DNA from: Planktomarina sp.
Lineage (GTDB): Bacteria; Pseudomonadota; Alphaproteobacteria; Rhodobacterales; Rhodobacteraceae
Direction: 5' to 3'
DNA: 39,494 bases
Assembly: GCA_020630015.1 (NCBI GenBank)
Contig: JAHDCF010000026.1
Span: forward strand, 1 to 39,494
Positions 11,497 through 36,952 of this stretch are shown piece after piece (position 1 is the stretch's first letter; each line of letters opens with the position of its first letter). The position numbers and the translations under genes are program-made. A model generated the notes under the pieces. It searched no databases. It was given only the letters and a program-made list of their open reading frames with translations, and was not told the origin of the DNA.

Positions 11497-12117
11497 TCAC
11501 CCTATGACAATATCGGCAGGTGCAGACATCTGATCAACCGTTTGGGCATTGGAAAGATCGTTTGAATGGGTTTTGGTGTGCGCCTCTTCTTGCGAAAACC
11601 CATGTGCCAGCCATCTGTCGATCAAGCGTTGTTCGATCACATCCAAAGGGGGTTTCAGTTGGATGGTGAAATCCCAAAATGGCCGTAGATCCCGCCAAAT
11701 CGGCATATCCAAAAGAAGGTAATTGCCTTCGAACAAGATGGTTTGGCAATCTGGATTGATGGCCCCTGCCCCAGCGATGGCCATATCCAATGACCTGTCA
11801 AACAGGGGGTAAACAGCCGCATTCCCCGATGCGATGCGAGACACTAGATTAAGAAACCCTTGGGCATCAAAGCTGTCGGGGCTTCCTTTGCGCGCGCGCA
11901 GGCCGCGGGCATCCAAGATGCGATTATCCAGATGAAACCCATCCATGGGCACCACCTGTGTTTCATGGCCCGTGGAATTCAGATCTTGTGCCAATTGATC
12001 GGCCAAGGTGGATTTACCACTGGCCGGTGGTCCGGAAATGGCCACCATGCGCCACCTGCCCCGGCAGGGGGCAGATGTTATGATGTCTGGTTCAATGGAC
12101 ACATCAGAACTTAACAA
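11497..12117 (-). CDS. P-loop kinase, uridine kinase/FrcK-like
   Basis: A 206-aa P-loop kinase. The Walker A motif is GPPASGKST at 29-37, followed by the substrate-site motif PMDGFHLDN (about 57-65), RARKGSPDSFD, YPLFDRSLD and an EGNYLLLD strand, the order seen in uridine kinase, pantothenate kinase and the sugar-kinase-like FrcK proteins of rhizobia and roseobacters. The product probably phosphorylates a nucleoside or sugar; no transporter operon is adjacent to fix the substrate. The start is uncertain: TTG at 12117 overlaps the end of the barrel gene by 14 bp, and GTG at 12102 is equally possible; neither has a good ribosome-binding site, so translation may be coupled to the barrel gene. 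Confidence 0.75.
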   Translation of the reverse strand: MLSSDVSIEPDIITSAPCRGRWRMVAISGPPASGKSTLADQLAQDLNSTGHETQVVPMDGFHLDNRILDARGLRARKGSPDSFDAQGFLNLVSRIASGNAAVYPLFDRSLDMAIAGAGAINPDCQTILFEGNYLLLDMPIWRDLRPFWDFTIQLKPPLDVIEQRLIDRWLAHGFSQEEAHTKTHSNDLSNAQTVDQMSAPADIVIG

Positions 12118-15100
12118 TCAGATTCACAAAGACACCTTCGTCGTCATAGGTCATATCCGTCAGATCGTCGCTGAAATCGCCGGTGTTGTACCCCACGCCC
12201 AGCTTAACATTGTTGCCTAGGTGACGATGCACAGAAACAAGGGCCCCAGTTTGGCTGAAACCGGCGTCCCATGCCTCCATCCGGCGCACTTCCAACAATG
12301 CATCCCACTTATGGGTCATGTGATACCGGGCGTTCAAGACGGCCAAGGCCGCATCATTTTCGCTGAAGGCGACACCGGCGGCAGGGGATGTTTTTGATTT
12401 CCGCACACCCAATTTGGCCCCAACGGTCCAATGTTTGTTCACATCATATTCCATGTCCCAATTCAAAACATGGCTGATCTGACGCGGGCCAGGTGTGGAT
12501 GTTCCATCAATTGTTTGCCCATACATGTCGCGCAGATACGTGTATTTGAACAACATGTTCAGCTTATCATTATCGACCGGACGACGCGCATACCCAAGGG
12601 TGAATTGCGTCAGCTCTCCATCATTGAAAGAGGCATTGTCGGCCTTCGTGTCGGCGTGATGGAACGTTGCCAACAAACGCGCATTTTCATTGAATTTATA
12701 TCGCAAAGTGCCAGAGGCGACGAGGCTGTCTACGTTACGGCTTGCCGACCCGACCATGCCCCGTTCTTTGCGCAGTTCAAGTCGCGCTTTGGCCCTAAGA
12801 TCGTCACCGTTGTCGTAACGTAGGCCAAATGACACCGCGGTTCGGGTGAAATCACCATTTACCGTATCACGAATTTCGCCGCGTTCGATGGATGACCCAA
12901 AGCTCAATTCTTCGGTCGGGGTGTATTCTACACCATAGGCCGCCGTTAGCGACTGATGCTCTCCGAACAGATCATAGGTGTTTTCACCCCATGCGGTTGT
13001 TGTGTCATTGATGCGGCGTTTGCCGCCGGCAATCAAGCGGCCGCTGTCTTTGCCAGTTAAGGTTACACCGTTGATGGTGCGATCTGGGGTCAACTCGTAA
13101 CCAAAATAAGTGCTGTTGCTTTCGTCGGCCTGATATGTGGCCAAGGCACGCACGCCCATACCAAGGGTTCCATCAGAAAGATCCCCTTCGAATGACCAAT
13201 TGTTGGGGCCTTCGTATTTTGCCGCAATCCCATATCTGTCATCACGGGTCAGACCACCGGATACATCGACGCCATGCCGCAAATAGGGGCTGACGGTCCA
13301 ACGATCGTTCAGTCGTACATCCGCGCGTACGGCCAATTCAGTGCGGGTACCAGTTTTGGTGGCATCGCCGGGATCCACTTGATCCAATTGACTTAGGCCC
13401 AAGTGCCAAGTCAGGCGGTCGGATGTTTTAAGACTGGCTTCCACTGTTGCTGTATTTTTTCTGTCGCCTGCGTCGCTTTCATATTGATCAATTGCGATTG
13501 AAAATTCAGAGGCATCCGTTGGTTTAAAACTGGCTGAAACGCCCCACAGGGTTTCGTCATCCGTTACATCGTGATTGACGGTGGAAAAACCCTTTGTGCG
13601 GTCCTCGTAATAGGCCGAGATATCGCCGTTCCAATTGGCATTAATATCGTTCAGATCAACATTGGTATCAAACCGAAGGGCCCGGCCTTCTTGACCGGTT
13701 GGTGCATTCGTATCGATGATAAAACCACCATCTGCCGAAAAGGTGGATGCGTTCGCAGCGCCCATGGATTTTGCGTATTCTAATTCGGCCCATGTGCTTT
13801 CGGTTGCTTGATACCGAATATCAGCACCGTACAATTTATGTTCATCTGTTCCGCGATCTTCCAACATGCCGGTCACGCCGACACGCCATTTATCACCCAA
13901 CCAGGCTTGCGCGCGTCCACCGTAGGAAAACACATCAACATCGCCGCTTGTGGGCGTGAATTCATAATTCACCACCAAACGGACTTCGTTTGATGTGGCG
14001 GTATTTGTGCCTGTTCCGGCCAAACCAGACCCAGAATAGGCCGACAAAGGACGGCTGAGGACCACCTGCCCTTGCAGGTAATTCACGTCATAATCCGAAC
14101 CCGGCGCCAGTTCGACACGATCCAAAATGCGCCCTGTGATTGGGTCAACCACCTCAACAAACAGGGTCTCTGATCCCAAAGAGATATCTTGCCGCGATAA
14201 AAAGTAGACAGAACCACCTGTCCCACGGAACACATCCCGGCCGGGCAAATTGTCAGGCTGCGCCGCAAATACGGTCACTTCTGCCTTGGCGTCGCCATTG
14301 GCCGTCACGGCCTGCGTTTCATAATGGGCTTGCAGACCATAAAGCGTGCGATCATTGCGGATGTAATTGGGGCTGGCCAAGCGGCCCTGATAATTGCCCC
14401 ACATGACATAGTTATTGTCGCGTTCAATCTTTACGTAAAATTTGCCGCTGGTGGGGGCATCATCCTCAGCCCGGCTATCGTCACCATAAACGGGAAAGCC
14501 ACGATCATCGTCAAACCGCGTCAAAAGTGATCGTGGGTCTTTCTTATCCAAATTGCGGAAGATATCTTCCAGATCTTCTTCGCCCGTATCAACAGATGCG
14601 GTGATTTCATATCCATTTGCAGTTTTGCCATTGGCATAAAACGCAATGCGACCGTGGCTGTATGTTCCGGTTTCACCACCCACACCAGCCGAGGTTCGTT
14701 TTCCAACGGTGATGTCGCCGATGGCCACATAAAACCATTCACTGGCCGGGATTGTGATGTCACGGATCACGTCCAACTTTTGTTGGCGACCGTTCACCTT
14801 CACATCAATTCCGTGATCACCAGGGGGCAAAATGCGTTGAACAACAAAGGCTCCGTTTGGATCAGGTTTGACAGTCTCGTTCAGGGTTTCAACCCGTGAT
14901 CCGGGCAGCACATTTTGCCCCGAAACGGTGACGGCCCCACCGTTCACACGAAAGCCTTGGCGCGCGGTGGCATCTGTGCCTTCTTCGATACCCGGTTGGC
15001 TTTGACGCGCTTGGCGCGCTGTCAGCTCTATCTCTCGTGTTTCGTTGTATCGGCCTTTGTCATCGTAAACCCGATGCACAACAACAAGGTTTTCACCTTC

Positions 15101-15694
15101 TGGGATTGTTGTTTGAACCGTGCCGTTGGCGCGAACTTCAACCACCTTAACCGTTTTGCGGCGACCACGACTGTCCACAGACAATATGCGCATTTCACCG
15201 CGACTTACCCACGCGGGATAATTGGTTTGGCTTTGTAATGTGACAGACGCCCCGGGGCGGAAACTGCTGTCGCCAATGGCAACATCCAAACGTGGGCGCA
15301 CGTCAAGGCCATCAAATCGCACTTGAACTTCGGCCTTGGCCAAAACCACGTCCGCCTTACGTTGCCCATCGCGTGTGCTGGGGGCGCGGCGTGTACGGTT
15401 TTGTTCAACCGCGATCCTGGGGTCGCCTTCAACTTGTTCGCCATTGATCGAAATGGCAAAGCCTTCGTCACCGGGATCATCTTCATTGTCCATCTCGGTG
15501 TTTTCACCAACGGGCATTGTCACCGTATCATCGCGTTCGGCGAATTCACATTCGGGATCAACAATTCCGCCAATGGTGGGGCATCCGCCCGTATTGGTGG
15601 ATTGCGCCGGAAGGGCAAGTGTCAGACCCAGTGCGGACACGCCTGTCAGCAATGCTGCCTTTGAAAGAAATATCTTGTTCAATGACTTACTCAT
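12104..15694 (-). CDS. Large outer-membrane beta-barrel protein paired with the giant repeat protein
   Basis: About 1,196 aa from the ATG at 15694. A Sec signal peptide (ALLTGVSALGLTLALPAQS) is followed by about 290 residues of Ig-like beta domains with an acidic linker, then from about 325 a long run of alternating strands with Asp/Gly-rich turns ending LIVKF, a C-terminal Phe typical of BAM substrates. The SVYFLSRQDISLGSE ... SDYDVNYLQGQVVLSRPL region resembles a motif found in other large outer-membrane proteins associated with DUF11 proteins; no assigned function is known to me. The open frame extends to 15769, but that would overlap the giant gene and hide the signal peptide; a GGGTGGG ribosome-binding site supports 15694. 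It begins 14 bp after the giant gene's stop, so the pair is an operon. Export or anchoring of the giant protein is a reasonable inference. Confidence 0.8.
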   Translation of the reverse strand: MSKSLNKIFLSKAALLTGVSALGLTLALPAQSTNTGGCPTIGGIVDPECEFAERDDTVTMPVGENTEMDNEDDPGDEGFAISINGEQVEGDPRIAVEQNRTRRAPSTRDGQRKADVVLAKAEVQVRFDGLDVRPRLDVAIGDSSFRPGASVTLQSQTNYPAWVSRGEMRILSVDSRGRRKTVKVVEVRANGTVQTTIPEGENLVVVHRVYDDKGRYNETREIELTARQARQSQPGIEEGTDATARQGFRVNGGAVTVSGQNVLPGSRVETLNETVKPDPNGAFVVQRILPPGDHGIDVKVNGRQQKLDVIRDITIPASEWFYVAIGDITVGKRTSAGVGGETGTYSHGRIAFYANGKTANGYEITASVDTGEEDLEDIFRNLDKKDPRSLLTRFDDDRGFPVYGDDSRAEDDAPTSGKFYVKIERDNNYVMWGNYQGRLASPNYIRNDRTLYGLQAHYETQAVTANGDAKAEVTVFAAQPDNLPGRDVFRGTGGSVYFLSRQDISLGSETLFVEVVDPITGRILDRVELAPGSDYDVNYLQGQVVLSRPLSAYSGSGLAGTGTNTATSNEVRLVVNYEFTPTSGDVDVFSYGGRAQAWLGDKWRVGVTGMLEDRGTDEHKLYGADIRYQATESTWAELEYAKSMGAANASTFSADGGFIIDTNAPTGQEGRALRFDTNVDLNDINANWNGDISAYYEDRTKGFSTVNHDVTDDETLWGVSASFKPTDASEFSIAIDQYESDAGDRKNTATVEASLKTSDRLTWHLGLSQLDQVDPGDATKTGTRTELAVRADVRLNDRWTVSPYLRHGVDVSGGLTRDDRYGIAAKYEGPNNWSFEGDLSDGTLGMGVRALATYQADESNSTYFGYELTPDRTINGVTLTGKDSGRLIAGGKRRINDTTTAWGENTYDLFGEHQSLTAAYGVEYTPTEELSFGSSIERGEIRDTVNGDFTRTAVSFGLRYDNGDDLRAKARLELRKERGMVGSASRNVDSLVASGTLRYKFNENARLLATFHHADTKADNASFNDGELTQFTLGYARRPVDNDKLNMLFKYTYLRDMYGQTIDGTSTPGPRQISHVLNWDMEYDVNKHWTVGAKLGVRKSKTSPAAGVAFSENDAALAVLNARYHMTHKWDALLEVRRMEAWDAGFSQTGALVSVHRHLGNNVKLGVGYNTGDFSDDLTDMTYDDEGVFVNLIVKF

Positions 15695-15708
15695 ACTCTT
15701 GCCCACCC

Positions 15709-18700
15709 TTAATTCGGCCGCGTGATTGTGCGTTCGATGACCAGTTTGTACCGGCCCACACCGCGCCATTTGCGACGAATTATTTTTTCAAGATGCCTGA
15801 TCCTGACCTGTGCACCTTTTGTATCTTCACCTTTGCGTAAAACATAGGAAATACGCAACATCGAAGGTTTCGATCGGATCTGGCGCAACACGCGATTCAG
15901 CGCTTTATCAAATCCCGGTTTGATATCCGCCCGGCCCGAGATGAACGCTTTGTGATTGATATCAATATCCACAATGTTCGAGATCGCGACACCAAAGTTC
16001 AGCTTGGCCATTTTACCCGGTGTCACACGAATGACGCGCGGGTTTTCCGTTGTCAGGCGATACCCTGTTGGCAAGCTGCGTGTATCCAACTTCATGATGA
16101 AATTCGAACCAATGTCTTTCGGCAATGCACCACAAGGCACGTGGAAGCGGCCATATTCATCGGTCGTGACACGCAAACCATTCGGGGTAACAAGACGGAC
16201 CCCTGCCATACCCGGTTCTGTTTTGTTAACGGTTTTCGGACGTGCCAGTTTATCACCATAATACGTCTGATCCGTGATCCCACGCAGGGTATCAGGGCCG
16301 TCCTGATATCCGTTTTGGTTCACATCATCAAAGACTTTGCCAATGATATCGGAACAATCAAAGACGTGCTCTGGCTCCATCCGAACGGATGCCGTCGCCA
16401 CGTTGGACACGCGGGCACCGTCATCTTCCATCCATGTGCGGTTGGTTAAGGTTCCGTCATTGCCATTCGCGCCAATCCGCGCTGACAATCGCACCGTCAC
16501 GGTTTGGGCCGGGGCCAAATCAATCGGCGTCCATGACAAAACTTGCCCTGAGATTGCAGGTTCATCTGCAACGCCATCCACCACGGCCGTGCCCGGCGTA
16601 TACAGAACGCCTGGCGGCAGACGATCGATGATTGTGGCATCATCCACAGGCCGCGATGTGTTGTTGGTGAATGTCAAAGTATAAGTAACCGTATCCCCAA
16701 ACACGACGGATGTTTTATCAACCGATTTGGTTGCCAAAATATCGGGCGTTCCAGAACAATTCCGCAATGGGATGTTGTTGTTCAAGATGATTGGGTCACC
16801 CGCCTCTACCGTGAAGGAAGTATAGAAAGGTGTATTCGTTGGGGCAGAGAAATCCGCCAAACGACCAGAACTTCCAAATTCGCTGGATCCAAGGGAAACA
16901 GATCCTGCCCCAAGCGAAGTCACATCAACATTGCCGGATGTGATCCGATCGGTGCTTGGCACACCGCCCGGTGGGTAAGTCAATGACAGTGTATAGGTTC
17001 CAGGCGCGGAAACATAGAACTGGAAGTACCCATCAGAACCATCGCGCACGATGTTAATATTATTGCTGACGCCCACGCCAGTTTGTGTTCCGGCAGGGCC
17101 AGTTACTGAAATCAAACCACCTGACAGGATACGCCCGTCTTCTTCGCAATAGAAGTACCCGGTTGGATCATAGTCTTGGCTGTCGCAGACACCATCGCCA
17201 TCGCGGTCGTCATTCGGGCCGCAACCTTCGGCGTCGTCGGGGGCGCCATCACCATCACGATCAATCATGGTCGCGGACACGGCCGCACTGTTTGGTGTTG
17301 GGATTTCATCCGACACTACAGACGCCACATTCGAATTGGCTGGGAAGCCATTCAAGGTGAAATAGGTCGCCGTGACAAGGATGGTTCCAGTCTGTCCTGA
17401 TGCCAATGAAACAGGGCCAGCCAGAGTTTCGATATCATTCACACCATCATAACCGGAATTTGCAGATCCATCGGTAAAGCCGGTGTTGCTGGTGGTGGCC
17501 GGGTAAACCGTTGTCATCAATGTGGCCGGTGCAACAAATGCCGTCAGATCATCCTGCACGCGCAGATTGTTCAGGGTAATGTTCCCCGTATTTTCAACTT
17601 CGATTGCAAATGTCGTGGCAAATACCTGCGGGAACAGAGTCACTGTCTCAACAATAGATTTGGTGATCGCAACATCGGGGCGCGGATTGATAGGCACAAC
17701 CGTTGGATCATCAAAGGTATTCCCATCCGTGTCATCACCATCATCAGATGTATCCGTCACACCCGCACCCAGTGGGGAAGTGCCTGTGGCAACAACGCTG
17801 TTGGAAACAGAGCCTGAATCCACATCCGCCTGTGTGGTTTGATACGTTACAGTATACGTGGCCGTTTCACCCGGCAACAACGTGCCAGCCACAGACCCAA
17901 GCGAGCTGGATCCAAAGACCAGTGTTGGGGCCACAAGGGCATCCCCATCACCATTTGTCATTGTATCGGCCAAAGCCACATCCAACAGGGTCACATTCCC
18001 AGTATTTTCGACAACAATTTCGAAGATGATGTCGTCTCCTACCTCGATGTCAGACGATGTTAGGGTCTTCGTCGCCTCAAGCGATGGCATTGGGGTAAAC
18101 AGTACCTCGGCCGGATCATCTGTGGTGTTGCCATCGCCCGGAACATTGTCATCGGACACGTCGGAAACTTCGTCCCCTGATAAAACATCGGTGCCCGCAA
18201 TGGTGGCAGAGTTCAGCACACCACCGGCGTCAATATCAGCTTGGGTCAGGGTATGGGTCGCGGTCCATGTCCAAACTTCGAGCACATCTAACCACGTGTC
18301 CCCATCAATATCGCCGGTTGGTCCACTGATGGTCAACGACAACGGTGTTCCATCCACACGGGTGAACGTATCGGTCAACATGATGTCTTCCAAATCGATG
18401 TCGCCCACATTGCGCCCGGTGAAGGTAAAGGTCACCACATCCCCGGCAACTGCATTTGGATCAACACTTGCGGTTTTTACCAAATTGATCGCTGGCCCCG
18501 GAACAATCTCATACACGGTTGGGTCGTCGCTGGTGTTTCCATCATCATCTATCCCATCGTCAGAGATATCTGTTACGCCTTCGTTGTTTGGATCCTCTGC
18601 CGTGACAGTCACACTGTTGATCAAACCGCCGGCATTAATATCGTCTTGGGTCAGGGTATAGGTGGCTGTGTATGTCCACACCTCGTCCACATCCAATTTC

Positions 18701-24700: not shown

Positions 24701-27700
24701 ACAGTCACGGGAACAGGCGTCGTCCCCTGCGCCGCGGCGTCGCTGAAAACAACATTCGTAAGCTTAACATTGCCCGTGTTCACAATCGTAACCGTATACG
24801 TCAACAAACCAGGTGCACTCAGCTCTGAAACGTCAACAACCTTCGATATCGTAAAGTTCGGCTGACTATCTATTACCGTCTTGGCGGTGTCGGTCAGGCT
24901 GCCGGCCTCATCGGTCGTCAACGTCGCGGTGTTAATGATATCCCCACCGTCATCCATATGCGTCTGATCAGCCGCAATCGTGACAGTCCATGTCCAAACC
25001 TCACCAACATCAAAGCTGCTGTCACCATTTCCATTGCCGGTCACTGTCGGGCCAGACGCAAGGGCAACCGTCGACGCCCCTTGAACCGCGCTGTCAGCAA
25101 GAACAACATTTGTAAGAGAAACGTTGCCCGTGTTTTCCGCGCGAATGGTGTAGGTCAATGTTCCAGGCGCATCTATGGACGCCTGATCAACGGTCTTCAA
25201 AAGTGTGAAGGCCGGATTTTGCGTCATGACTGTTGACGCATCATCCGATTTTGCACCCGCCTCTGCCGTTGTGAAAGTGGCGGTGTTATCAATGGTATTG
25301 CCGGCATCAAGGTTGGCTTGATCGGCATCAATGGTGACGGCATAGGTCCATGTTTCACCCACATCCAATTCACCATTTCCATCGTCCCCGGTGGGCCCTG
25401 TCGGACCTGTGGTCAGGGCAACCGCAGCAGAATTTTGTTCCGCAACATCGCCAAAGTTCACACCCGTCAGAGTGACGTTACCGGTGTTTTCAATTTCGAT
25501 ATCATAAGTCAGCGTGCCAGGGGCAGAAATGCTGGCCAGATCCACAGATTTTTCAATCGTGAAGTCAGGGTTTTGAGCGATCGTGGTGGTGGCATCATCC
25601 GATTGCACCGGCAACTGATCAGTATCGATCGAAGCCGTGTTCACGATATCCGCACCATTATCAATCATGTCTTGAGTGACGGACAGGGTCGCAAGATAAT
25701 TCCATGTTTCACCAACATCCAACAGGTTGTTCCCGTTATCGCCAGCCCGGAATGGGCCATTGGTCATGGCAGGTGTGGTTGTCCCTTGGGCCAATGTATC
25801 TGTGAACACAGGATTGGTCAGGGTGACGTTGCCCGTATTTTCAATCGATATGGTGTAAACCAATGTTCCCGGCGCATCCAAAGACGCGATGTCAACATTT
25901 TTCGTAATCACCACCGCAGGGGTCTGGGTGAAGGTCGTTGTGGCATCATCAGTTTGGCTTGGCACCTCTTGGGTCGTAACGGTGGCTGTGTTCACCAAAT
26001 CGTTGCCATCATCCACATGGGATTGAAGGGCATTGATCGTCACTGTCCAAACCCAAGTTTCACCCACATCCAACGCATCATCGGCATCGGTATCACCCGA
26101 CAGGGTTGGCCCGCTGGCGATTGCGATCGACGCGCCATTTTGCGCCGCCGTATCCGTCAAAGAAACACCCGTCAAAGTGACGTTCCCGGTGTTTTCCGCC
26201 GTGATGGTATAAGTCAAAGTCCCCGGCGCCGATAGATCAGCAATATCGACATCTTTGGTCAAACTAAAGGATGGGGTTTGCGTAATCGTTGTTGTCGCAT
26301 CGTCAGACTTTGCCGACACCTGATCGGTTGTCATGGTCGCGAGGTTATCAATATCAGTGCCCGCATCGATCATAGCTTGGGTCACAGCAACAGTCGCCGT
26401 GTAGACCCATGTTTCGCCCACATCAATCGCACCCACCGTTCCCGTGTCAGCCCCCAACGTTGGGCCGGACGCCAATGGAACGGAAACGCCATTTTGATCC
26501 GCCGCGTCGGATAACACCGGGCCCGTCAACGTGGTATTGCCCGTATTTTCGACAGAAATCGTATAGGTCAACGTACCGGGTGCCGCGATATTTGCCAGAT
26601 CCACATCTTTGGTGATTGTGAAATTCGGGGATTGCGTGAACATCGTGATCGCATCGTCAGATTGGGCATCGGTTTGATCGGTATCAACCGTTGCTACATT
26701 CACAAGGTTGCCCCCATCATCAACATGGGTTTGATCCGCGGCGATGGTAACGGTGTAGGTCCAAGTTTCACCAACATCCAAGGCGTTGTTTCCATCATCA
26801 CCGGTCGGGGTTCCCGGACCAGATGCCAAAGAAACAGGGGCGCCACTTTGGCTGGCCGCATCCGCCAAACTGACATTGGTCAGGGTTTGGTTCCCGGTAT
26901 TTTCCACGGTGATGGTATAGGTCAAAGTACCCGGTGCCGTCAGAAGCGCGGTATCAACCGACTTGGCAATCACCAGCGATGGTTCCTGACTTGCGGTCAA
27001 GGTCACATCATCTTCGTTTGAAGTGGCTGTAACCGTGCCCTGCCCTGAAATTGGCTGATCCACCTGTGCAGAGGCGGTATTCGTGACAGACCCATTATCG
27101 ATATCCGTCTGGGAAATCGTATAAGCCCCCGTACACGTGATGAAATCACCCGGTGCAAGACCCGTCGCCGGCAAAGCTGGGCATGTCACGGATGCGATCT
27201 TATCATCGCTTACGGTGATCGGGGCGGTCAAAGTAATATTACCAGTATTGGTCACCTTATAGGTAAAGTTCGCAACCTGACCCGGCGCATCATATTCACC
27301 GGCAAACAATGTTTCTTTGTCCAAAGAAATCGCTGGTTCACGGCTTGGGCCGGTCAATACAACCGTATCATCGTCAGATGCCGATGTGCCAAGTGTGCTT
27401 TCGGCCGTAACACTGGCGGTGTTTTCGCGGCTGCCCGCATCGATATCCGCTTGGGTCAGGGTATATGTTCCCGTCAAGGGGGTACCGTTTGCACAGGATG
27501 TCACAACATCACCCGGCGCCATGTCCGGCAACAAGCAAGACAAGCCAATCAATGGGTCAGACACCGTGACATTCACCAATGTCACATTGCCCGTGTTTTC
27601 AACCGAAATTGAATAATCTTCTGTGGTTGGCAAAGCATCGAATGTGCCGGTTCCATCAACTTCGGTCTTTGTCAGCTCAATTTTGGGATCCTCTGTCGGG

Positions 27701-30700
27701 CCAGTCGCAGTGTGATTGTCATCATCATCCACTGTTCCACCCAACGGCGGGTTGGCCACAACGGTTGCTGTATTCAAAATGCTGCTCGCATCAACATCAG
27801 ACTGTAAAACGGTATAGGTTCCGGTACAGCTGCCTGTGGCGTCTGGTGCCAAATCTGGGATCGCACAGGTCAATCCGGGGATTAACGGATCAGAAACCGA
27901 AATCCCACTCAATGTCACTGTTCCTGTATTTTCCACGGTAAACGTATACGTCAGGGTTTCGCCCGCCGCCGTAAAGGTGGTTGGGCCGTCTTTTGTCAAT
28001 TCGATCGCTGGCGCTTGGGTACCCGTGATTGTCACGTCATCAGGCTCTGATGTCACCTCTGTCGTAAGGGTTGGGTTGTCAGGCGCAAACGTTGATTGGG
28101 CATATGCCTCGTTCAAGACTTCGCCCGCATCCATATCCGCCAAAGTTACCGTGTAACTGGCCGTACAAGAAATACTGTCACCCGGGTTAAAGGCCATCCC
28201 AGATGGGGGAACATAACAGGTGATCGTCCCGATCTTGGAATCCACAATTTCGATATCATCGACAAATGGCGCACCACCTGTATTCGTGACATCAAATCGA
28301 TATGTCAAAACATCACCAACCATGGCAAAGCTCTGCCCTGCTGGATCTTCAACCTTATCCAACGTAAGCGCCGGATCAGCAGAGGTCGGCACGTTTTCAG
28401 ATGCCTGATTTGATGTGGCATCCCCATCGCTGGCCGTTGCAATATTCGTAACAACACCCAAGGCCGCATCACCTGCGGTGACGGTGTACAGGCCTGTACA
28501 TGTGATGGATGCGTTGGGGGCAAGGCCGGGTGGGTTTGTGATGGCGGGGCATGTGATGCCTGAGGCCGGGATTTTGTTATCCGTCACGGTGATCGCGTTG
28601 GTGATCGTCGTGTTGCCGGTGTTGGTCACCACATAATCATAGGTCAGCACAGACCCAACCGCAAAGGTGCCAGAGTTGAACGTCTTTACCAGACCAAGGG
28701 CCGGGCTTTGCACCGCGTTCACCGTTTCCGTATCCGTGTTCGATGTGGTGGTGCCATCGCTGGCACTGGCCACGTTCGTCACAGACCCTGCATCAATATC
28801 CGCCTGCGCCGCAGTCCAAACCGCGGAACATGTCACACTGTCGCCCGGCGCAACCGCCGTCGCAGAACAGGTGATCGGGCCGCTGATCTTATCGTCGGTC
28901 ACGTTCAGCGGTGTGCCCAGCGTTGTGTTCCCGCTGTTCGTCACAGTGTATTCATAGGTGATCTGATCACCCACCGCCGCGTATGTCGTCGCCGATGTGG
29001 ATGCCAAATCCTTTACCAATGTGATCTCAGGCGTTTGTGTGAACGTCGTGGTGTCAGACGCATCCACCTGTGCGGTTTGATCGGTGGTCACACTGGCCGT
29101 GTTCACCAGATCATTGCCATCATCCACATGGGATTGCAGCGCCGCAAACGTTGCTGTCCAGGTCCAAACTTCGCCTACATCCAGCGATGTATCCCCATTG
29201 CCATTGGCCGTAATCGTGGGGCCAGACGTCAAGGTGGCCCCTGTGCCATTTTGATCCAACGCATCGGTTAACATCACACCCGTCAGGGTCTGGTTGCCCG
29301 TGTTCGTCGCCGTGATCGTATAGGTTAACGTGCCAGGCGCGCTGAGGGTTGGGATATCAACCACCTTGGCCAAGGTCATCGCCGGTGTCAGGGTGATGGT
29401 CGTGGTCGCATCATCTGATTGCGACGCAACCTCATCCGTGACAAAGCTGGCGGTGTTTACAATATCACTGCCCGTGTCCAGCATGGCCTGCGTTACATCA
29501 AGTGTCGCCGTATAGGTCCAAACCTCGCCCACATCCACAAGCATGTCCCCATCATCCCCAGACAAAACAGGGCCAGAGGTTAACGTCGGCGCCGCCGCAC
29601 CTTGGGCCACAACATCCGTCAAAACAGGGGACGTTAGGGTCGTATTGCCCGTATTTGTCACTGTAATCGTATAGGTTAACGTGCCCGGTGCCGTCAGGGC
29701 CGCCGTGTCTACATCCTTAACAATCGTAAACGCTGGCGTCTGATCAAAGGTGGTTTCCGCAGTGTCGGATTTGGGGCCAGCCTCGGTCGTGTCAAACGTC
29801 GCCGTGTTGATCAAAACCGTGCCGTCATCCACGTGATCCTGCGTCGCATTCGCCGTCACCGTATAGGTCCAGGTTTCCCCAAAATCGAGGTCCCCATTCC
29901 CATCATCCCCAACAGGACCCGCCGTAACAGTCACGGGAACAGGCGTCGTCCCCTGCGCCGCGGCGTCGCTGAAAACAACATTCGTAAGCTTAACATTGCC
30001 CGTGTTCACAATCGTAACCGTATACGTCAACAAACCAGGTGCACTCAGCTCTGAAACGTCAACAACCTTCGATATCGTAAAGTTCGGCTGACTATCTATT
30101 ACCGTCTTGGCGGTGTCGGTCAGGCTGCCGGCCTCATCGGTCGTCAACGTCGCGGTGTTAATGATATCCCCACCGTCATCCATATGCGTCTGATCAGCCG
30201 CAATCGTGACAGTCCATGTCCAGGTTTCGCCAACCTCAAACACATTATCGCCGTCATCCCCAGAAGGGGCTCCGGGCCCACTGGCCAGCGTCAGCGTGGT
30301 TGGCCCCTGATTTGCACTGTCGGTCAACACAACATCGGTCAAAGAAACATTGCCCGTATTTTCCGCGGTGATCGTATAGGTCAGCGTCCCCGGCGCGCTT
30401 ATCGTCGCCTGATCAACAGATTTATCCAGCGTGAATTTTGGTGTTTGAGTGATGGCGGTTTTGGCACCACTTTCCTTCGTATCAACACCATCAGCGGCGA
30501 ACCCAGCCGTGTTCACGATGGTATTGCCGTCATCAATCATGGCTTGGGTCACATCAACCGTGACGGTGTAAACCCAAGTTTCTGACACCTCCATGTCGCC
30601 ATTATTATTAGTGTCGCCCGCAAGCGTTGGACCAGATGCCAGCGGCACAGACGTTCCGTTTTGGTCGGCCGCATCCCCAAAGGCAATCCCGGTCAGTGTT

Positions 30701-33066
30701 GTATTGCCCGTGTTGCGCACAGTGATGGTATACGTCAGGGTGCCCGGCGCAGTGATTGTGGCTTGATCCACGACTTTGTCTATCTCAAAGTCAGGCTCTT
30801 GCTCGATGGTGGTTTGGACGGTGGCATCTTGTGAGATCGCCTCATCCACATCAAATGTCACTTTGTTTTGAATCGCAGCACCGTCATCAATGTTGCCTTG
30901 CGTGACAGCATAAGTCGCATCGTAAACCCAAGTTTCGTCCGGATCGATTTCACCGTCCCCATCGGTATCGCCAGACAAAGTTGGACCCGACGTTAATGTA
31001 AGGGTTGTGCCGCCTTGGTTGATCACATCCGTGATTACCGGATTTGTCAGAGAAACATTGCCCGTATTTTCCACCGTGATCTGATAAGCCAAAACCCCTG
31101 TGGCATTGATGGTGTCTTGATCCACAGTTTTTTCTAAAGTGAAACTTGGATCTTGCTTAATCTCTGTTACGGCGTTGGCGTCTTGTGGTTTTGCCTCATC
31201 AAAGCCAATCGAGGCTTTGTTCACAATATCCGCACCTGCATCGATATCATCTTGCGTGGCGTCGTAAGTCACCGTGTATGTCCAGGTTTCCCCGACATCC
31301 AATTCACCATTCCCATTGTCCCCGGACAAAGTCGGGCCAGATGTGATTGGGCCCGCACTAATCACATCCGTCAAATCAGGATTGGTCAAAGTAACATTGC
31401 CCGTGTTTTCGACAGTAATCGTATAGGTCAATGTTCCCGGCGCAGTGATCGTATCAAGATCAACCACCTTTTCCATGGTGAAGAGCGGCTTATAACTGAC
31501 CGGCGTCTCTGCGGTGGCGTCTTTCACCTCGTCCGTTTCTTCGGTTTCAGCGGTAACGGTGTTAATCAGATCAGTATTGGCATCAATATCGGCCTGTGTG
31601 GTGGTATAGCTGATTGTGTATGTCCAAGTTTCATCAAGATCCAAATTGCCAGCAGCGGCATCCGCATTGGTGCCGCCTGCCTCAACCGGGCCGGACAATG
31701 TGCCGGTGCTGCCATCCGGCAAGGTATCATCCACCACAACATTGGTCAGCGGAATCTCACCCGTGTTTTCCACGACAATTTCATAATCAATCACCTGACC
31801 CGGCTCGGTGATCGGGTTCGGCCCGCCCACTTGCTTTTTGGTCAGTTTAAAATCAATGATGGCTTTGATTTCGATTGTTACGGTGGCCTGCGCTGTCAGG
31901 CCCGATGCGTCAACGATCTCATATACAAATGTATCGGTCCCAACGAACCACATATCTGGCGTATAGGTAAAGTTGCCCGCCGCATCGATTGTGACAGATC
32001 CATTTGAAGGGCCGGAAATAAGACCCGGCTGAACCGATATCGATGTGCCTTCGGGATCGTTGTCCATCCCATTTCCATTGTCGACAATCACATTGCCCGA
32101 CACCGGCACATTTACGGGTGTTACAAAATCATCATCAAACGCCAATGGGGGAAGATTAGGAAATGGTGCTTGGTTACACGAAAATCCATCGTTGTTTCCT
32201 GATGGAACACCCACCGCCCTCAATACCGCCGTTGGTGATCCAAAAGGATCTGAAACCTCATAGATTTGGCCGGTACTATTATTAAACGTAAATATTCGCC
32301 CGGCAGAGTCCGTCCAAGTTGCACCAAACCCGCCAGCGTTAATCAAGCCAGGAACGGAAACGGTGGCAACTGTACCGTCAGTAATATTATAGAGCGTTTG
32401 CCGCCCGCCGCCTGCGTAACCAACCAGATACTCTTTCCCGCCGAATTGAACATAGGCAACATCCGCAACACCGGCGATGCCAGAACCCGTAAAATTAACC
32501 GTTGTCACGGCGCCTGTGGCAATGTCTATTTTATAATAGCTGGTGTTGTTTCGACGCAGCCAATAATTATTGGATCGGTCAACGTCCCCCGAATATGACC
32601 CAAAACCCAAATTGTGGACACGTTCAACAGTGCCGTCCGCGTGGATGCGGATCAACCAACCACTTTGGGAACCATAGGCATAATTATCAAGAACGTTGTA
32701 CCCAGTCGCATTATAACTGCCTTGGTTCGTACCAACATTTACATATGTCGACGTGACCGGATCAAAAATTCGCAACTGGCCTGATTGCACCTGATATACA
32801 TCGCCAGTGCACATAAAGGGGCCTGCATGGGCAGGTGTCGCCACAAATGAAAATGACGCCAACGATATTACCATCGTCAACGTCGCAGTGATCAGCCCAA
32901 GTATCTTGGATTTCAAGAAGGATTTCGACCTTTTAAATTCATCCCCAAAACTGGTCCGGTTAAGCCGATATTCACTACCCTGCCCCATAACGCCTATCCC
33001 TAAGCACTCTGCAACTTTGAGTTGATCATCATTACCAAACCAAAGCAACAGTTGTTTAAACAACAT
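15709..33066 (-). CDS. Giant secreted protein with about 41 tandem DUF11/DUF7507-like modules
   Basis: A single intact frame of 5,785 codons. Order: signal sequence ending VATPAHA (cleavage near 81); a beta-propeller-like DUF6923-type domain (about 85-300); a cadherin/Ig-like domain (305-403, NVIVDNGNGMDNDPEG, GNFTYTPD); about 41 modules of 95-120 residues (404 to about 5264), each with a P-x-hydrophobic-x-x-x-K start and a Y-x-[IVF]-x-V-x-N-T/S-G core; a DRDGDGAPDD/DRDGDGVCD Ca2+-binding-type segment (about 5267-5300); a Cna-B-like domain; one more DUF11 module (about 5440-5570); an SdrD-B-like domain (KVFDDVNQNGYQDG); and a degenerate OmpA-like end (about 5705-5785). No sortase motif or RTX repeats. 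It is probably a long surface adhesin or fibre. The start is unclear: ATG 32988 has AGGGAT upstream, and TTG 32916 would give a 31-aa signal peptide. Confidence 0.85.
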   Translation of the reverse strand: MLFKQLLLWFGNDDQLKVAECLGIGVMGQGSEYRLNRTSFGDEFKRSKSFLKSKILGLITATLTMVISLASFSFVATPAHAGPFMCTGDVYQVQSGQLRIFDPVTSTYVNVGTNQGSYNATGYNVLDNYAYGSQSGWLIRIHADGTVERVHNLGFGSYSGDVDRSNNYWLRRNNTSYYKIDIATGAVTTVNFTGSGIAGVADVAYVQFGGKEYLVGYAGGGRQTLYNITDGTVATVSVPGLINAGGFGATWTDSAGRIFTFNNSTGQIYEVSDPFGSPTAVLRAVGVPSGNNDGFSCNQAPFPNLPPLAFDDDFVTPVNVPVSGNVIVDNGNGMDNDPEGTSISVQPGLISGPSNGSVTIDAAGNFTYTPDMWFVGTDTFVYEIVDASGLTAQATVTIEIKAIIDFKLTKKQVGGPNPITEPGQVIDYEIVVENTGEIPLTNVVVDDTLPDGSTGTLSGPVEAGGTNADAAAGNLDLDETWTYTISYTTTQADIDANTDLINTVTAETEETDEVKDATAETPVSYKPLFTMEKVVDLDTITAPGTLTYTITVENTGNVTLTNPDLTDVISAGPITSGPTLSGDNGNGELDVGETWTYTVTYDATQDDIDAGADIVNKASIGFDEAKPQDANAVTEIKQDPSFTLEKTVDQDTINATGVLAYQITVENTGNVSLTNPVITDVINQGGTTLTLTSGPTLSGDTDGDGEIDPDETWVYDATYAVTQGNIDDGAAIQNKVTFDVDEAISQDATVQTTIEQEPDFEIDKVVDQATITAPGTLTYTITVRNTGNTTLTGIAFGDAADQNGTSVPLASGPTLAGDTNNNGDMEVSETWVYTVTVDVTQAMIDDGNTIVNTAGFAADGVDTKESGAKTAITQTPKFTLDKSVDQATISAPGTLTYTITAENTGNVSLTDVVLTDSANQGPTTLTLASGPGAPSGDDGDNVFEVGETWTWTVTIAADQTHMDDGGDIINTATLTTDEAGSLTDTAKTVIDSQPNFTISKVVDVSELSAPGLLTYTVTIVNTGNVKLTNVVFSDAAAQGTTPVPVTVTAGPVGDDGNGDLDFGETWTYTVTANATQDHVDDGTVLINTATFDTTEAGPKSDTAETTFDQTPAFTIVKDVDTAALTAPGTLTYTITVTNTGNTTLTSPVLTDVVAQGAAAPTLTSGPVLSGDDGDMLVDVGEVWTYTATLDVTQAMLDTGSDIVNTASFVTDEVASQSDDATTTITLTPAMTLAKVVDIPTLSAPGTLTYTITATNTGNQTLTGVMLTDALDQNGTGATLTSGPTITANGNGDTSLDVGEVWTWTATFAALQSHVDDGNDLVNTASVTTDQTAQVDASDTTTFTQTPEITLVKDLASTSATTYAAVGDQITYEYTVTNSGNTTLGTPLNVTDDKISGPITCSATAVAPGDSVTCSAVWTAAQADIDAGSVTNVASASDGTTTSNTDTETVNAVQSPALGLVKTFNSGTFAVGSVLTYDYVVTNTGNTTITNAITVTDNKIPASGITCPAITNPPGLAPNASITCTGLYTVTAGDAALGVVTNIATASDGDATSNQASENVPTSADPALTLDKVEDPAGQSFAMVGDVLTYRFDVTNTGGAPFVDDIEIVDSKIGTITCYVPPSGMAFNPGDSISCTASYTVTLADMDAGEVLNEAYAQSTFAPDNPTLTTEVTSEPDDVTITGTQAPAIELTKDGPTTFTAAGETLTYTFTVENTGTVTLSGISVSDPLIPGLTCAIPDLAPDATGSCTGTYTVLQSDVDASSILNTATVVANPPLGGTVDDDDNHTATGPTEDPKIELTKTEVDGTGTFDALPTTEDYSISVENTGNVTLVNVTVSDPLIGLSCLLPDMAPGDVVTSCANGTPLTGTYTLTQADIDAGSRENTASVTAESTLGTSASDDDTVVLTGPSREPAISLDKETLFAGEYDAPGQVANFTYKVTNTGNITLTAPITVSDDKIASVTCPALPATGLAPGDFITCTGAYTISQTDIDNGSVTNTASAQVDQPISGQGTVTATSNEDDVTLTASQEPSLVIAKSVDTALLTAPGTLTYTITVENTGNQTLTNVSLADAASQSGAPVSLASGPGTPTGDDGNNALDVGETWTYTVTIAADQTHVDDGGNLVNVATVDTDQTDAQSDDAITMFTQSPNFTITKDVDLANIAAPGTLTYTISVENTGNTTLTGPVLSDAADQNGVSVPLASGPTLGADTGTVGAIDVGETWVYTATVAVTQAMIDAGTDIDNLATMTTDQVSAKSDDATTTITQTPSFSLTKDVDIADLSAPGTLTYTITAENTGNVTLTGVSLTDTAAQNGASIAIASGPTLSGDTDADDALDVGETWVWTVTINALQSHVDDGNDLVNTATVTTQEVPSQTDDATTTFTQTPAVVITKNVDIASLDAPGTLVYTISIENTGNVTLTNPVFTDTLAQGTTTPAMTNGPFRAGDNGNNLLDVGETWNYLATLSVTQDMIDNGADIVNTASIDTDQLPVQSDDATTTIAQNPDFTIEKSVDLASISAPGTLTYDIEIENTGNVTLTGVNFGDVAEQNSAAVALTTGPTGPTGDDGNGELDVGETWTYAVTIDADQANLDAGNTIDNTATFTTAEAGAKSDDASTVMTQNPAFTLLKTVDQASIDAPGTLTYTIRAENTGNVSLTNVVLADSAVQGASTVALASGPTVTGNGNGDSSFDVGEVWTWTVTIAADQTHMDDGGDIINTATLTTDEAGSLTDTAKTVIDSQPNFTISKVVDVSELSAPGLLTYTVTIVNTGNVKLTNVVFSDAAAQGTTPVPVTVTAGPVGDDGNGDLDFGETWTYTVTANATQDHVDDGTVLINTATFDTTEAGPKSDTAETTFDQTPAFTIVKDVDTAALTAPGTLTYTITVTNTGNTTLTSPVLTDVVAQGAAAPTLTSGPVLSGDDGDMLVDVGEVWTYTATLDVTQAMLDTGSDIVNTASFVTDEVASQSDDATTTITLTPAMTLAKVVDIPTLSAPGTLTYTITATNTGNQTLTGVMLTDALDQNGTGATLTSGPTITANGNGDTSLDVGEVWTWTATFAALQSHVDDGNDLVNTASVTTDQTAQVDASDTTTFTQTPEITLVKDLASTSATTYAAVGDQITYEYTVTNSGNTTLGTPLNVTDDKISGPITCSATAVAPGDSVTCSAVWTAAQADIDAGSVTNVASASDGTTTSNTDTETVNAVQSPALGLVKTFNSGTFAVGSVLTYDYVVTNTGNTTITNAITVTDNKIPASGITCPAITNPPGLAPNASITCTGLYTVTAGDAAIGSVLNVATASDGNVTSNADDEQIPTDAPRALSLTKTQNPAGQSFDSVGDVLTYEYSLTNTGAVPFVDTLTLVDDKIGSFACYTPPTGTAFNPGDTVTCTASYSVTQDDLDAGQVVNVAVANTTFAPDDPALTTEVYSNSDDETIVGDIMPNLGLIKAVTAGNDPAAVGDVLTYTLVATNTGNQTLSTVAISDPMLGALTCDIVAPVTLLPTEALTCTGTYTVLQTDIDAQILTNTANATGTDPDGDALTPDATDVHPLVDAAPAVQVVKAITPNPGTDPAYTNPGDVVNFVMTVTNTGNVTLNSVAVTDSLVPGTCTVGPLLPNATDATCTFAYTVTQADIDAGAITNTANAVGTPASDDDPVTDDDTIPVQGPPANPLLALEKSTTHADYATAGQVLTYDYKVTNAGNITLFSQISVTDDKIGTFNCGTMPSGGLAPGAFVTCSATYTVLQSDVDSGSLTNIATADNDETPVSNQDTVTLDAVRDSMIELVKTPSITSGAQVGDVITYTYTVTNSGNTTLTNVTMADTHTSASAISALPIAGDTLLTDNGISGDSADASANGVWDVLAPGDVVTFTATYTVTQRDVDRNNPLTNVATVTSTSPDGVNPDATDDASVQPEARDPDMVVTKSISSLEGVVAGDLVTFEITIENSGNVTLDNVVLTDTLTDLSGVGLTLASGPDYVSGDNPPTSILEVDETWVFEATYALTQSDIDAGGILNVIAVTADDPGGDTISDDDDAKLMINPDPSLNLEKTITSSTIALGETVTFELLVENTGNVTLSGVVIASDTLTRADGTVLALTSGPSWVSADAGSSVGVLIPNEVATYQATYILTQADIDAGGIQNTALAQGTPPTGTPVTDTSDDADDTDGNTDDDPTVLEIPADPSLALLKQLDPAGLASFDAVGDVIDYQFIVTNTGNVTLTNQIGITDPLITGAGGTITCPAPPLAPLASVTCTGSYTVTQADIDAGKVDNTATASDGTTTSNEDDVSVPAIQSPAMSLVKTPDPMEPEDYVTGAVATYTYVVTNTGNTTLTSPITVTDNLIPASDISCPAYPAAGLAPTETYTCTATYTITSTDVTLGSVTNIAGASDGTIDSNDTSATIPNQGTPSLTLDKQAVAGSTFANVGDVVDYTYTVTNSGQVAFTQDIRIFDNKIGDFRCWTALPGDPDFSAGETVTCTAQYTITQADVDAGEVINDAYAQTNFVGTEVSSNVDQVTVTGDQNPSIDLVKSAVPARFGFVDDVIEYTFDVENTGNQTLTGMVVTDPLIPSLSCTLPSMAPGDTHSCTGTFTITQVEIDAATLTNTASVTALDPNGDAVTDTDSVTLPGPANAPALELTKTANPSPFGAVGTVVTYMFAVENTGNVTLTNVAVTDPLITGFNCVIPSIAVGATDTTCSAPYTVTQADVDAASITNTASATGTSPDGSEATDDDSITTQGPEQVPALEATKTFVSSGTAVGSTVTYTLLVENTGNVTLTNVGVTDTMVTNTGGATALDGPFALISGDLNTDLKLDVDEVWTYTATYTLTQDDINAGGLINSVTVTAEDPNNEGVTDISDDGIDDDGNTSDDPTVYEIVPGPAINLVKTASVDPNAVAGDVVTFTFTGRNVGDIDLEDIMLTDTFTRVDGTPLSLTISGPTGDIDGDTWLDVLEVWTWTATHTLTQADIDAGGVLNSATIAGTDVLSGDEVSDVSDDNVPGDGNTTDDPAEVLFTPMPSLEATKTLTSSDIEVGDDIIFEIVVENTGNVTLLDVALADTMTNGDGDALVAPTLVFGSSSLGSVAGTLLPGETATYTVTYQTTQADVDSGSVSNSVVATGTSPLGAGVTDTSDDGDDTDGNTFDDPTVVPINPRPDVAITKSIVETVTLFPQVFATTFAIEVENTGNITLNNLRVQDDLTAFVAPATLMTTVYPATTSNTGFTDGSANSGYDGVNDIETLAGPVSLASGQTGTILVTATYFTLNGFPANSNVASVVSDEIPTPNSAAVSATMIDRDGDGAPDDAEGCGPNDDRDGDGVCDSQDYDPTGYFYCEEDGRILSGGLISVTGPAGTQTGVGVSNNINIVRDGSDGYFQFYVSAPGTYTLSLTYPPGGVPSTDRITSGNVDVTSLGAGSVSLGSSEFGSSGRLADFSAPTNTPFYTSFTVEAGDPIILNNNIPLRNCSGTPDILATKSVDKTSVVFGDTVTYTLTFTNNTSRPVDDATIIDRLPPGVLYTPGTAVVDGVADEPAISGQVLSWTPIDLAPAQTVTVRLSARIGANGNDGTLTNRTWMEDDGARVSNVATASVRMEPEHVFDCSDIIGKVFDDVNQNGYQDGPDTLRGITDQTYYGDKLARPKTVNKTEPGMAGVRLVTPNGLRVTTDEYGRFHVPCGALPKDIGSNFIMKLDTRSLPTGYRLTTENPRVIRVTPGKMAKLNFGVAISNIVDIDINHKAFISGRADIKPGFDKALNRVLRQIRSKPSMLRISYVLRKGEDTKGAQVRIRHLEKIIRRKWRGVGRYKLVIERTITRPN
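23237..24996 (-). repeat. 1,760-bp identical direct repeat, copy 2 in protein order
   Basis: Appears identical base for base to 28463-30222 (offset 5,226 bp). The left edge differs at 23236 (c) against 28462 (g), and the right edge changes after 24996/30222 (aaacc against ggttt). It encodes residues about 2691-3276, from the end of module 20 to most of module 25. Confidence 0.93.
28463..30222 (-). repeat. 1,760-bp identical direct repeat, copy 1 in protein order
   Basis: Partner of 23237-24996. It encodes residues about 949-1534, from the end of module 5 to most of module 10. The repeat unit spacing is 1,742 codons, so exchange between copies keeps the reading frame. Flanking modules remain alignable but diverged. 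Confidence 0.93.
33051..33064. promoter_or_regulatory. Perfect 14-bp palindrome at the 5' end of the giant gene
   Basis: GTTGTTTAAACAAC covers the first codons of the longest reading frame of the giant gene. If translation really starts at 32988 or 32916, this is a leader-region operator candidate. No regulator can be assigned. Confidence 0.4.
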
Positions 33067-33345: not shown

Positions 33346-34047
33346 TCAGTTCACGGTAATTCGGATGTCTTTGACATCCTGATCAACCTCTTTGAATGAA
33401 GGCAAAAGAACATTGAAAAAGTGTTGGGATATGTATTCAGCCACAAACGAAGATGGTGCTGTTAAGTAAACAGTACCATTTTGTGCATCACTCCAACTCA
33501 GTTTTCTAAACCAAGCATCAAAAGTTGCGGCATCACGTTGTTGCAAGCGCAGACAAACCTCTGTCCAAACGCTGGGCTGGTCTGGATTACGATCAATCGG
33601 ACGCAACGGAACAACATTGCTGACGTCCGTTTCAATTGCCGTACCAGACATTCTGGCAAAGAAATCTGGGCCGACCTGGTTCCAAAACGGCATTGTGTCA
33701 GACAACACATTTTCCACGTTTACCGTATGGCGCGTAACGCGATTGCGTGCGGCAGGGACAAGAACTTCTATCCAATTCGCTTTGCGAAGGGCTGCAAGCT
33801 CTCGTTTTGCGGTGCGTTCAGTAACACCCCAAAGTTTTGCCAATTCACGTTGCCCCACTGCAAAGCTGTGCGTTTGCCAATTAAACCGCGCTGTGATCAG
33901 CAAAGACAAGCGCAGCGCTAAACGACTTTGAAGTGGCGCACCTTGGGCGGCAAGCGTCAAAAGAGCGGTGATAAAATCATATTTTATGGATGCTGCACCC
34001 GGCCCCACAAACCGTGGTGCGGAAACAGAAGACGACCGCCCGATCAT
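33346..34047 (-). CDS. DnaA-like plasmid replication initiator
   Basis: A 233-aa protein of the DnaA-like replicase type known from Rhodobacterales plasmids. The N-terminal half (about 20-115) is a winged-helix domain (FAVGQRELAKLWGVTERTAK followed by RELAALRKANWIEVLVP). The C-terminal part (about 157-231) matches DnaA domain I: W161 in SVWTEVCLRLQ, F176-x-x-W179, and GTVYLTAPSSFVAEYISQHF. No AAA+ ATPase region and no DnaA domain IV are present, so it must recruit helicase without its own ATPase. The ATG has an ACGGAGAG ribosome-binding site. It stands divergently from parA across a 432-bp region with iteron-like repeats, the expected layout for this replicon class. Confidence 0.88.
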   Translation of the reverse strand: MIGRSSSVSAPRFVGPGAASIKYDFITALLTLAAQGAPLQSRLALRLSLLITARFNWQTHSFAVGQRELAKLWGVTERTAKRELAALRKANWIEVLVPAARNRVTRHTVNVENVLSDTMPFWNQVGPDFFARMSGTAIETDVSNVVPLRPIDRNPDQPSVWTEVCLRLQQRDAATFDAWFRKLSWSDAQNGTVYLTAPSSFVAEYISQHFFNVLLPSFKEVDQDVKDIRITVN

Positions 34048-34479
34048 ATATGCTCTCCGTTCTGATCTAACGCCAGATTGTTGATGGATGCGCCATTTAG
34101 AAACAAATTACAACGCTTTTCCAGATTGTGACGGAATTAACGTTGGAAACAGTGTGGGAGTCAATGATTCTTCATGATTGAACCAAATCGACCAACAACC
34201 CTAAAGGAAAAAATGGGTTTCTTGGTATTGGGGGACGTTCAAGATGTCCCCCCATCGACACAAGATGTCCCCCCAATTTGACTCTAAAGCCCTTGGGTGT
34301 CCCCCAATATATTGTGCCAGTGGGTCTCGTTGGGCTTTTGGCCCGATTCGGATCAGGTGTTCTTCAGGTGGCGTTAAAAACCTATGGAAAGTGTATTTTA
34401 GAAAGAAATGACATATCTCGACAAAAGAGGCAAATTCGGCGTAAATACGAAAAACCACTGAATTAGCGTCCGAGGTATT
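34048..34479. other. Candidate replication origin region between replicase and parA
   Basis: This 432-bp gene-free stretch separates the divergent replicase and parA genes. It has AT-rich parts (about 34098-34130 and 34375-34460) and, near its middle, a cluster of C-tract repeats. No perfect chromosomal-type DnaA box was seen. Promoters for both genes must lie here, but none stands out. Confidence 0.6.
34226..34309. repeat. Iteron-like cluster in the candidate origin
   Basis: AAGATGTCCCCCCA occurs at 34241-34254 and 34262-34275, exactly 21 bp apart (two helical turns). Two shorter GTCCCCCA elements flank them, one inverted at 34229-34236 and one direct at 34299-34306, and TATTGGGGGA / TCCCCCAATA (34226-34235 and 34300-34309) form an inverted repeat that encloses the set. 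This fits a replicase-binding array. Confidence 0.7.
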
Positions 34480-35817: not shown

Positions 35818-35820
35818 CCC

Positions 35821-36927: not shown

Positions 36928-36952
36928 AAACCTTATCCGCGGATAAGGTTTT
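36927..36952. promoter_or_regulatory. Candidate parS site 3 (after parB)
   Basis: A perfect 26-bp palindrome with core CCTTATCCGCGGATAAGG that overlaps the parB stop codon and lies between convergent parB and hipA. With its A and T flanks it could also act as a terminator, but the same core inside parA favours parS. Confidence 0.8.

Follow-up and report, generated by a model that had tools for sequence, protein, structure and literature searches.

A giant DUF11-type repeat protein and a predicted outer-membrane barrel form a linked gene pair that may build and hold a surface fibre

In two-partner secretion (type Vb), adjacent genes encode a large cargo protein with a Sec-type signal and a dedicated outer-membrane barrel. 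Classical autotransporters (type Va) carry the passenger N-terminal and the barrel C-terminal, and their barrels are much smaller than the one described here. Type IX secretion combines SprA, a very large barrel, with cargo that has a conserved beta-rich C-terminus and a variable remainder. Chaperone-usher pili place an outer-membrane barrel beside the fibre genes and follow a donor-strand logic, and giant type I-secreted adhesins such as SiiE are strings of Ig-like domains. In the TasA/TapA fibres of Bacillus subtilis, subunits are linked by N-terminal donor strands and a separate base protein is predicted to give the first strand (PMC9674648).

The 39,494-nucleotide stretch of DNA analysed here, referred to as the window, is the whole of contig JAHDCF010000026.1 in an assembly of Planktomarina sp. 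(Rhodobacterales; Rhodobacteraceae) and carries genes for a giant modular protein and a predicted outer-membrane barrel side by side (Table 1). This is the gene arrangement of a two-partner system, but the window barrel matches no POTRA family, the scanned parts of the cargo match no two-partner family, and the conserved part of the cargo is C-terminal, not N-terminal; the pair may function as such systems do without belonging to their family. Three relatives in which cargo and barrel are fused (L063, L140 and L151) have the passenger and barrel order of classical autotransporters, whereas the window barrel is a separate gene and matches no autotransporter family. The conserved beta-rich cargo C-terminus, the variable rest and the possibly very large barrel recall type IX secretion, but no type IX C-terminal domain was found at the end of the cargo. 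Scans of 19 barrel family members returned 14 Pfam families at E up to 0.1, with no POTRA, usher, autotransporter, TonB-plug or receptor family among them, and the best 25 of 37 NCBIfam families at E up to 1 included no SprA, TonB-plug or receptor family. The pair shares with chaperone-usher pili a barrel beside a fibre gene and, in the split loci described below, a possible donor-strand logic, but the usher family PF00577 was absent from the barrel and had zero matches in the window's genome (an E. coli control was positive), and no chaperone gene was noticed adjoining the pair. SiiE is likewise a giant string of Ig-like domains, but it is secreted by a type I system; no genes of that kind were seen in the window, whose giant has a signal peptide by eye. 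The donor-strand logic of TasA/TapA resembles that proposed for the split loci, whereas those fibres are Gram-positive and lack a barrel (PMC9674648); here the domains completed by donated strands would be of DUF11 type, and the fibre of the window itself, unlike TasA/TapA, is a single covalent chain. A first-pass annotation of the window had stated that known export routes for giant adhesins do not obviously apply, and our scans, in which no known exporter family was matched, agree. Its further statement that no type I secretion genes are seen agrees with our reading of the window by eye and with Pfam on five flanking genes; TolC-type proteins are encoded elsewhere in the genome (OEP, five matches in three frames). 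POTRA_2 was matched once in the same genome, by a 794-aa frame scoring below cut-off. No report of this pair was found in the titles and abstract openings of the literature matches listed, from a collection whose scope excludes most subscription journals and bioRxiv preprints.

Table 1. Features of the gene pair and of the neighbouring genes, in window coordinates
Feature	Position	Strand	Details
Giant modular secreted protein (proposed fibre)	33066-15709	minus	5,785 codons
N-terminal head, DUF6923	32173..32754	minus	giant residues about 105-298; Pfam PF21959, E 6e-23
Big_9 Ig-like domain	31873..32157	minus	giant residues 304-398; Pfam PF17963, E 4.1e-15
42 DUF11/DUF7507-type repeats	16582..31809	minus	giant residues about 420-5495; last two partial
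Conserved C-terminal domain (proposed docking domain)	15712..16416	minus	giant residues 5551-5785; alignment A2
Predicted outer-membrane barrel protein	15694-12104	minus	1,196 aa from ATG at 15694
N-terminal region of barrel protein	14660..15469	minus	about residues 76-345; Ig-like by eye; alignment A1
Predicted beta-barrel domain	12107..14659	minus	about residues 346-1196; roughly 36-40 amphipathic strands (crude count); C-terminal Phe
Helix-turn-helix plus DnaA_N protein	33346-34047	minus	Pfam
ParA-like	34480-35817	plus	Pfam
ParB-like	35821-36927	plus	Pfam
HipA-like	36989-38290	minus	Pfam

We consider it somewhat probable that the pair forms a fibre on the cell surface whose C-terminus is docked on a dedicated barrel and whose N-terminus is the tip. 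The giant would be exported by Sec, as its signal peptide read by eye suggests, and its N-terminal head would become the distal tip of the fibre, while the 42 repeats would form a stalk of about 160 nm if each measures about 4 nm. The C-terminal domain (SdrD_B-like, with a probable disulfide and a variable tail) would stay at the base and dock on the periplasmic N-terminal region of the barrel. The barrel, probably very large, would most likely let the stalk pass to the surface and then anchor it, and passage of the giant through it is likely. In some genomes the fibre seemingly consists of several smaller secreted proteins that donated beta strands hold together, and in these split builds the docking-domain protein would give a strand to the last subunit. 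We infer the surface location, the docking, the passage through the barrel, its direction and the strand number from sequence features. The reading as fibre and holder draws on conserved linkage, on a conserved C-terminus combined with a variable head and length, on fused chains and on co-variation of the partners.

The giant is a DUF11/DUF7507 repeat protein, with its repeat family above curated cut-off. Over residues 1-2400, Pfam returned DUF7507 at E 2.7e-258 and DUF11 at E 4.1e-74, with cut-offs exceeded by PF24346 (837.7 bits) and PF01345 (246.7 bits), and TIGR01451 of NCBIfam scored 288.5 bits. The 42 repeats were counted with a profile built from such repeats, and 40 of them span at least 91 of its 108 positions. 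These results, together with the confirmed minus-strand frame, uphold the giant protein with DUF11-type repeats of the first-pass annotation. That it lacks RTX and autotransporter domains stands for the parts covered by the family-library scans (residues 1-2400 and the last 785), where the families listed included none for RTX, autotransporter, two-partner or type IX C-terminal domains. Its Sec export, also claimed earlier, is consistent with a signal region visible at about residues 48-81; signal peptides of both the giant and the barrel protein were read by eye, with no predictor behind the reading. Because the signal region sits so far into the frame, the true start of the giant may be Met27 rather than Met1. 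The gene also contains a direct repeat of 1,815 nt at 99% identity (window 28408-30222 and 23182-24996; residues 949-1553, with the second copy 1,742 residues later), which reflects either the recent duplication of about five repeats within the gene or an effect of assembly.

The ATG of the barrel gene lies 14 bp after the stop of the giant and is preceded by GGGTGGGC; an alternative in-frame start at 15769 would lengthen the protein and make the two genes overlap. The frames, the gap and the C-terminal Phe are thus as first annotated, with the signal peptide again read by eye. The protein ends in VNLIVKF, and a C-terminal Phe was present in all two-gene barrel relatives compared, save L072 (Tyr); the full-length barrels of this set measure 1,124-1,260 aa. 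Nothing in Pfam or NCBIfam exceeded cut-off with the window barrel protein: its best Pfam match was OMP_b-brl at E 0.0022 (18.7 bits against a cut-off of 28.7), a family found in 12 of 19 barrel family members at E up to 0.1, and NCBIfam gave zero families at E up to 1. The Ig-like N-terminus suggested earlier is plausible by eye, but family searches found no Ig-like family in that region of the window protein. The strand number comes from a hydropathy-alternation scan, crude in nature, that gave 51 peaks from residue 312 on, trimmed by eye to 36-40. Against solved structures, the A1 barrel profile gave a single chance-level match (AdpA, E 0.47).

Linkage of the two genes was surveyed in 394 genomes of the same family with a barrel search and a profile of the giant's C-terminal domain. 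Strong barrel matches were those of at least 200 bits; 22 of 70 rows were dropped as weaker, leaving 48, the window's own included. A C-terminal-domain match lay within 1 kb upstream on the same strand in 43 of these 48, one of which (G367) is a fused chain, and the five others comprise a pair in reverse order (G378), three matches at contig ends (G021, G155, G166) and a fragment (G339). Stop-to-start distances were -4 to 27 bp in 27 of the 32 pairs measured, the exceptions being L054, L062, L137, L142 and L164. Counted from the other side, 43 of 50 strong C-terminal-domain matches were paired with a barrel in the linkage table; the remaining seven are L158 and L159, which have a barrel beside them that went unscored in the barrel search, the reverse-order G378, two matches at contig ends in G120, L160, and the split locus L161, where no barrel was found within the 15 kb read. 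Strong barrel matches occurred in 43 of the 394 genomes, and per genome both genes were found in 39, only the barrel in four, only the C-terminal domain in one and neither in 350 (Fisher p 4e-48, a value overstated since the genomes are related). The distribution of the pair is patchy, since the same-genus genome G045 has neither gene, and the pair is also present on a 4.3-Mb single-contig genome (G300). The tight pairing on which the first-pass annotation partly based its suggested exporter or anchor, and against which rare adjacency in other genomes would have counted, is supported by this survey. One further match is adjacent in reverse order, and single-chain fusions of the two proteins occur in L063, L140 and L151.

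Two loci from this survey have unusual layouts. In the reverse-order pair (G378, L157 2539-16680) the barrel comes first and the genes lie 45 bp apart. L160 (4983-5720) encodes a 245-aa protein, secreted by eye, with little beyond the docking domain, no repeats and no adjoining barrel; its genome (G054) has a full pair elsewhere.

The C-terminal ~235 residues of the giant are conserved among relatives, at 39-62% identity to those of the window (alignment A2, 48 rows), with the consensus FDC.D.IGKVFDD.N.NGYQD...GEPGL.GVRL.T..G..ITTDE.GRFHVPCA.LP...GSNF.LKLD.RSLP.GYR.TTENPRV.R.T.GK....NFG. The domain consists of an SdrD_B-like part and then a more variable tail; Cys5571 and Cys5645 (giant residues) are invariant, and a disulfide is probable. 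SdrD_B was matched in 37 of the 48 domains at E up to 1, with a best value of 1.4e-8 and only 0.25 for the window. Among solved structures nothing matched the domain below E 0.5. An OmpA-like tail, suspected by eye, was rejected: Pfam OmpA matched none of the 48 members, and a profile comparison gave a probability of 0.1 with a weak two-row profile.

The rest of the giant varies. Intact giants, counted without L056 and the split loci, range from 985 aa (L003) to 6,195 aa. Heads and repeat numbers differ among relatives; a head beginning GD(V/I)YQVQSGQLRIFDP is common to the window, L033 and L157, and many others start with a different domain. A conserved C-terminus with a variable head and length agrees with the N-terminus being the distal tip and the C-terminus the dock at the base. 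Pairwise distances between barrels and between C-terminal domains were correlated at 0.67 over 38 pairs, as high as in none of 5,000 permutations, with species descent left uncontrolled. For eight paralogues in four genomes, the cognate partner correlated better in six, in one case by a margin of 0.01, and nearest-neighbour agreement was seen in four. The L056 giant has 727 aa, and the frame upstream looks like the same gene cut. L170 (7334-9538) encodes a 734-aa protein in which five stretches in tandem resemble the SdrD_B portion of the docking domain; the 16 kb fetched contained no barrel.

In some relatives the two proteins are joined and in others the giant is divided. The C-terminal domain and the barrel form one chain in L063 (2,626 aa), L140 (4,545 aa) and L151 (2,079 aa, open at the 5' end), and more distant single chains of 1.7-2.2 kaa combine DUF11, SdrD_B-like, sometimes OmpA, and barrel-like stretches; two of them have SdrD_B over cut-off, one of these also OmpA. 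A single chain of this sort may have split to give the two-gene form. At three loci small secreted DUF11 proteins stand in place of the giant (L161 9240-14335, L165 1-6490 and, by eye, L141 4741-10713). In L165 and L161 these proteins have 200-342 aa and signal peptides by eye and precede a docking-domain protein of ~1,010 aa, and L141 has, by eye, a chain of three. Because the L161 and L165 proteins are only 38-49% identical, the split arrangement has been kept across lineages.

The boundaries of these small proteins suggest how they could be joined. Their last DUF11 match ends at position 83-84 of 108, at most 4 residues from the protein end (4 of 4), and the short starts of the next mature proteins on their own gave no significant match to the repeat profile (best E 0.05). 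When each end was joined in a script to the next start, the match in L161 and L165 extended from position 83-85 to 99-105, and the joined-domain score exceeded that of every one of 1,000 shuffles and 1,000 background pieces at three of four junctions; the score of the fourth was matched by 62 shuffles and 40 background pieces. Seven of eight single-chain loci have a secreted-looking protein with a similar end directly upstream. A further donor-strand test covered nine junctions with 500 shuffles and 500 background pieces each, leaving out L168, whose upstream frame holds no such protein. L066 was clear (0 shuffles, 0 background pieces), L067 (25 and 37), L065 (27 and 33) and L144 (36 and 17) were borderline, and the profile test was unsupportive at the other five, namely the two of L141 and those of L145, L064 and L156, where ends and starts look alike by eye. 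In the split loci, though not in the window, subunits seem to supply strands that complete the DUF11 domains of their neighbours. We regard a wider and more tentative reading as possible: a previously undescribed outer-membrane fibre system, present in more than one order of the phylum, would combine a very large barrel (about 36-40 strands by crude count) with a C-terminal docking domain and exist in two interchangeable builds, as a covalent chain of dozens of DUF11 domains like that of the window or as donor-strand subunits, the last of which receives a strand from the docking-domain protein, ancestral single chains having split into cargo and barrel.

Searches outside the family used A1, an alignment profile of 46 barrels. 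At E up to 1e-5 it matched 12 of 385 genomes at class level and 57 of 398 at phylum level; many phylum-level matches are weak, partial and of the L156 type, represented here by L156. From the class and phylum matches, 17 strong loci in 16 genomes were picked by hand, of which 12 are paired (L137, L141, L142, L146-L150, L152-L155), two fused (L140, L151) and three solitary. The sequence fetched around the solitary barrels, from two genera (L138 625-4281, L139 637-4305 and L143 12801-16811), contains no giant; the barrel can therefore occur alone, and its family is not tied to the giant everywhere. This is the main fact against a strict cargo-exporter reading. Named carriers include many Rhodobacterales, and the pair was also found in further classes of the phylum. 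In two genomes belonging to the same genus the barrel gene is broken into two frames, and the break lies at a different point in each (L142 6877-10865 and G412:C77:652-4108).

The barrel is also carried by plasmids. It was found in 23 of 72,556 named plasmid records, with at least 80% of the query covered in 19 of the 23, in genera that include Sulfitobacter, Roseovarius, Roseivivax, Loktanella, Phyllobacterium and Sinorhizobium. The complete plasmid pSG53 of Sulfitobacter guttiformis carries the pair, with a giant of 6,195 aa, as does plasmid accessoryA of Sinorhizobium meliloti (order Hyphomicrobiales); in both of the two plasmid records whose neighbours were checked, a DUF11 protein lies directly upstream of the barrel. 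The window's own contig is probably part of an extrachromosomal replicon. The plasmid-type replication protein encoded upstream was considered as a conserved neighbour and rejected, with no match in the 42 loci then compared.

An unlikely but substantial alternative is that the barrel is an anchor only and that the giant gets across the outer membrane in some other way, such as a TolC-type or unknown path, before its C-terminal domain clamps the barrel. The TolC-type proteins in the window's genome could supply such a route, anchoring alone would explain the fused forms just as well, and no energy source or translocation domain was seen. Against this, the giant has an N-terminal Sec-type signal by eye, which type I cargo lacks, and no exporter gene was seen adjoining the pair, either by Pfam on the five flanking genes (11497-12117 and 33346-38290) or by reading translations in the rest of the left flank. 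An arrangement in which the whole complex is periplasmic, with repeats and barrel forming an envelope scaffold or tether and nothing displayed outside, appears improbable. OmpA domains near the junction in some relatives (three stretches in the L147 barrel protein, one in L156) and the existence of solitary barrels would suit it, but 42 Ig-like repeats, if extended, would be several times longer than the periplasm is wide, and the heads vary between genomes as adhesin tips do, with DUF6923 in the window and other starts elsewhere.

Public annotation points towards a third role, as seven of the 23 plasmid records label the barrel a TonB-dependent receptor (others call it a hypothetical protein, an OmpA family protein or something else), and the giant would then be a lid or bait for the substrate of a transporter or receptor. 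We judge this very unlikely, since the name looks like an automatic label and the families listed in the scans of 19 members described above include no TonB-plug or receptor family. That the genes merely travel together on plasmids and islands with no interaction, as the plasmid-type replication genes adjoining the pair and the plasmid-borne relatives might suggest, is scarcely credible given the fusions, the overlapping stop and start codons, the adjacency kept in reversed order and the pairing on single-contig G300.

Any role of the pair in attachment to surfaces is a guess. If the reading as a fibre docked on a dedicated barrel is true, the pair would provide a route, open to direct test, by which giant proteins with a Sec-type signal are exported and anchored where every known outer-membrane exporter is missing. 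It would also assign a partner to a barrel family labelled TonB-dependent receptor or hypothetical in public records, and would link covalent and donor-strand builds of the same fibre within one gene family.
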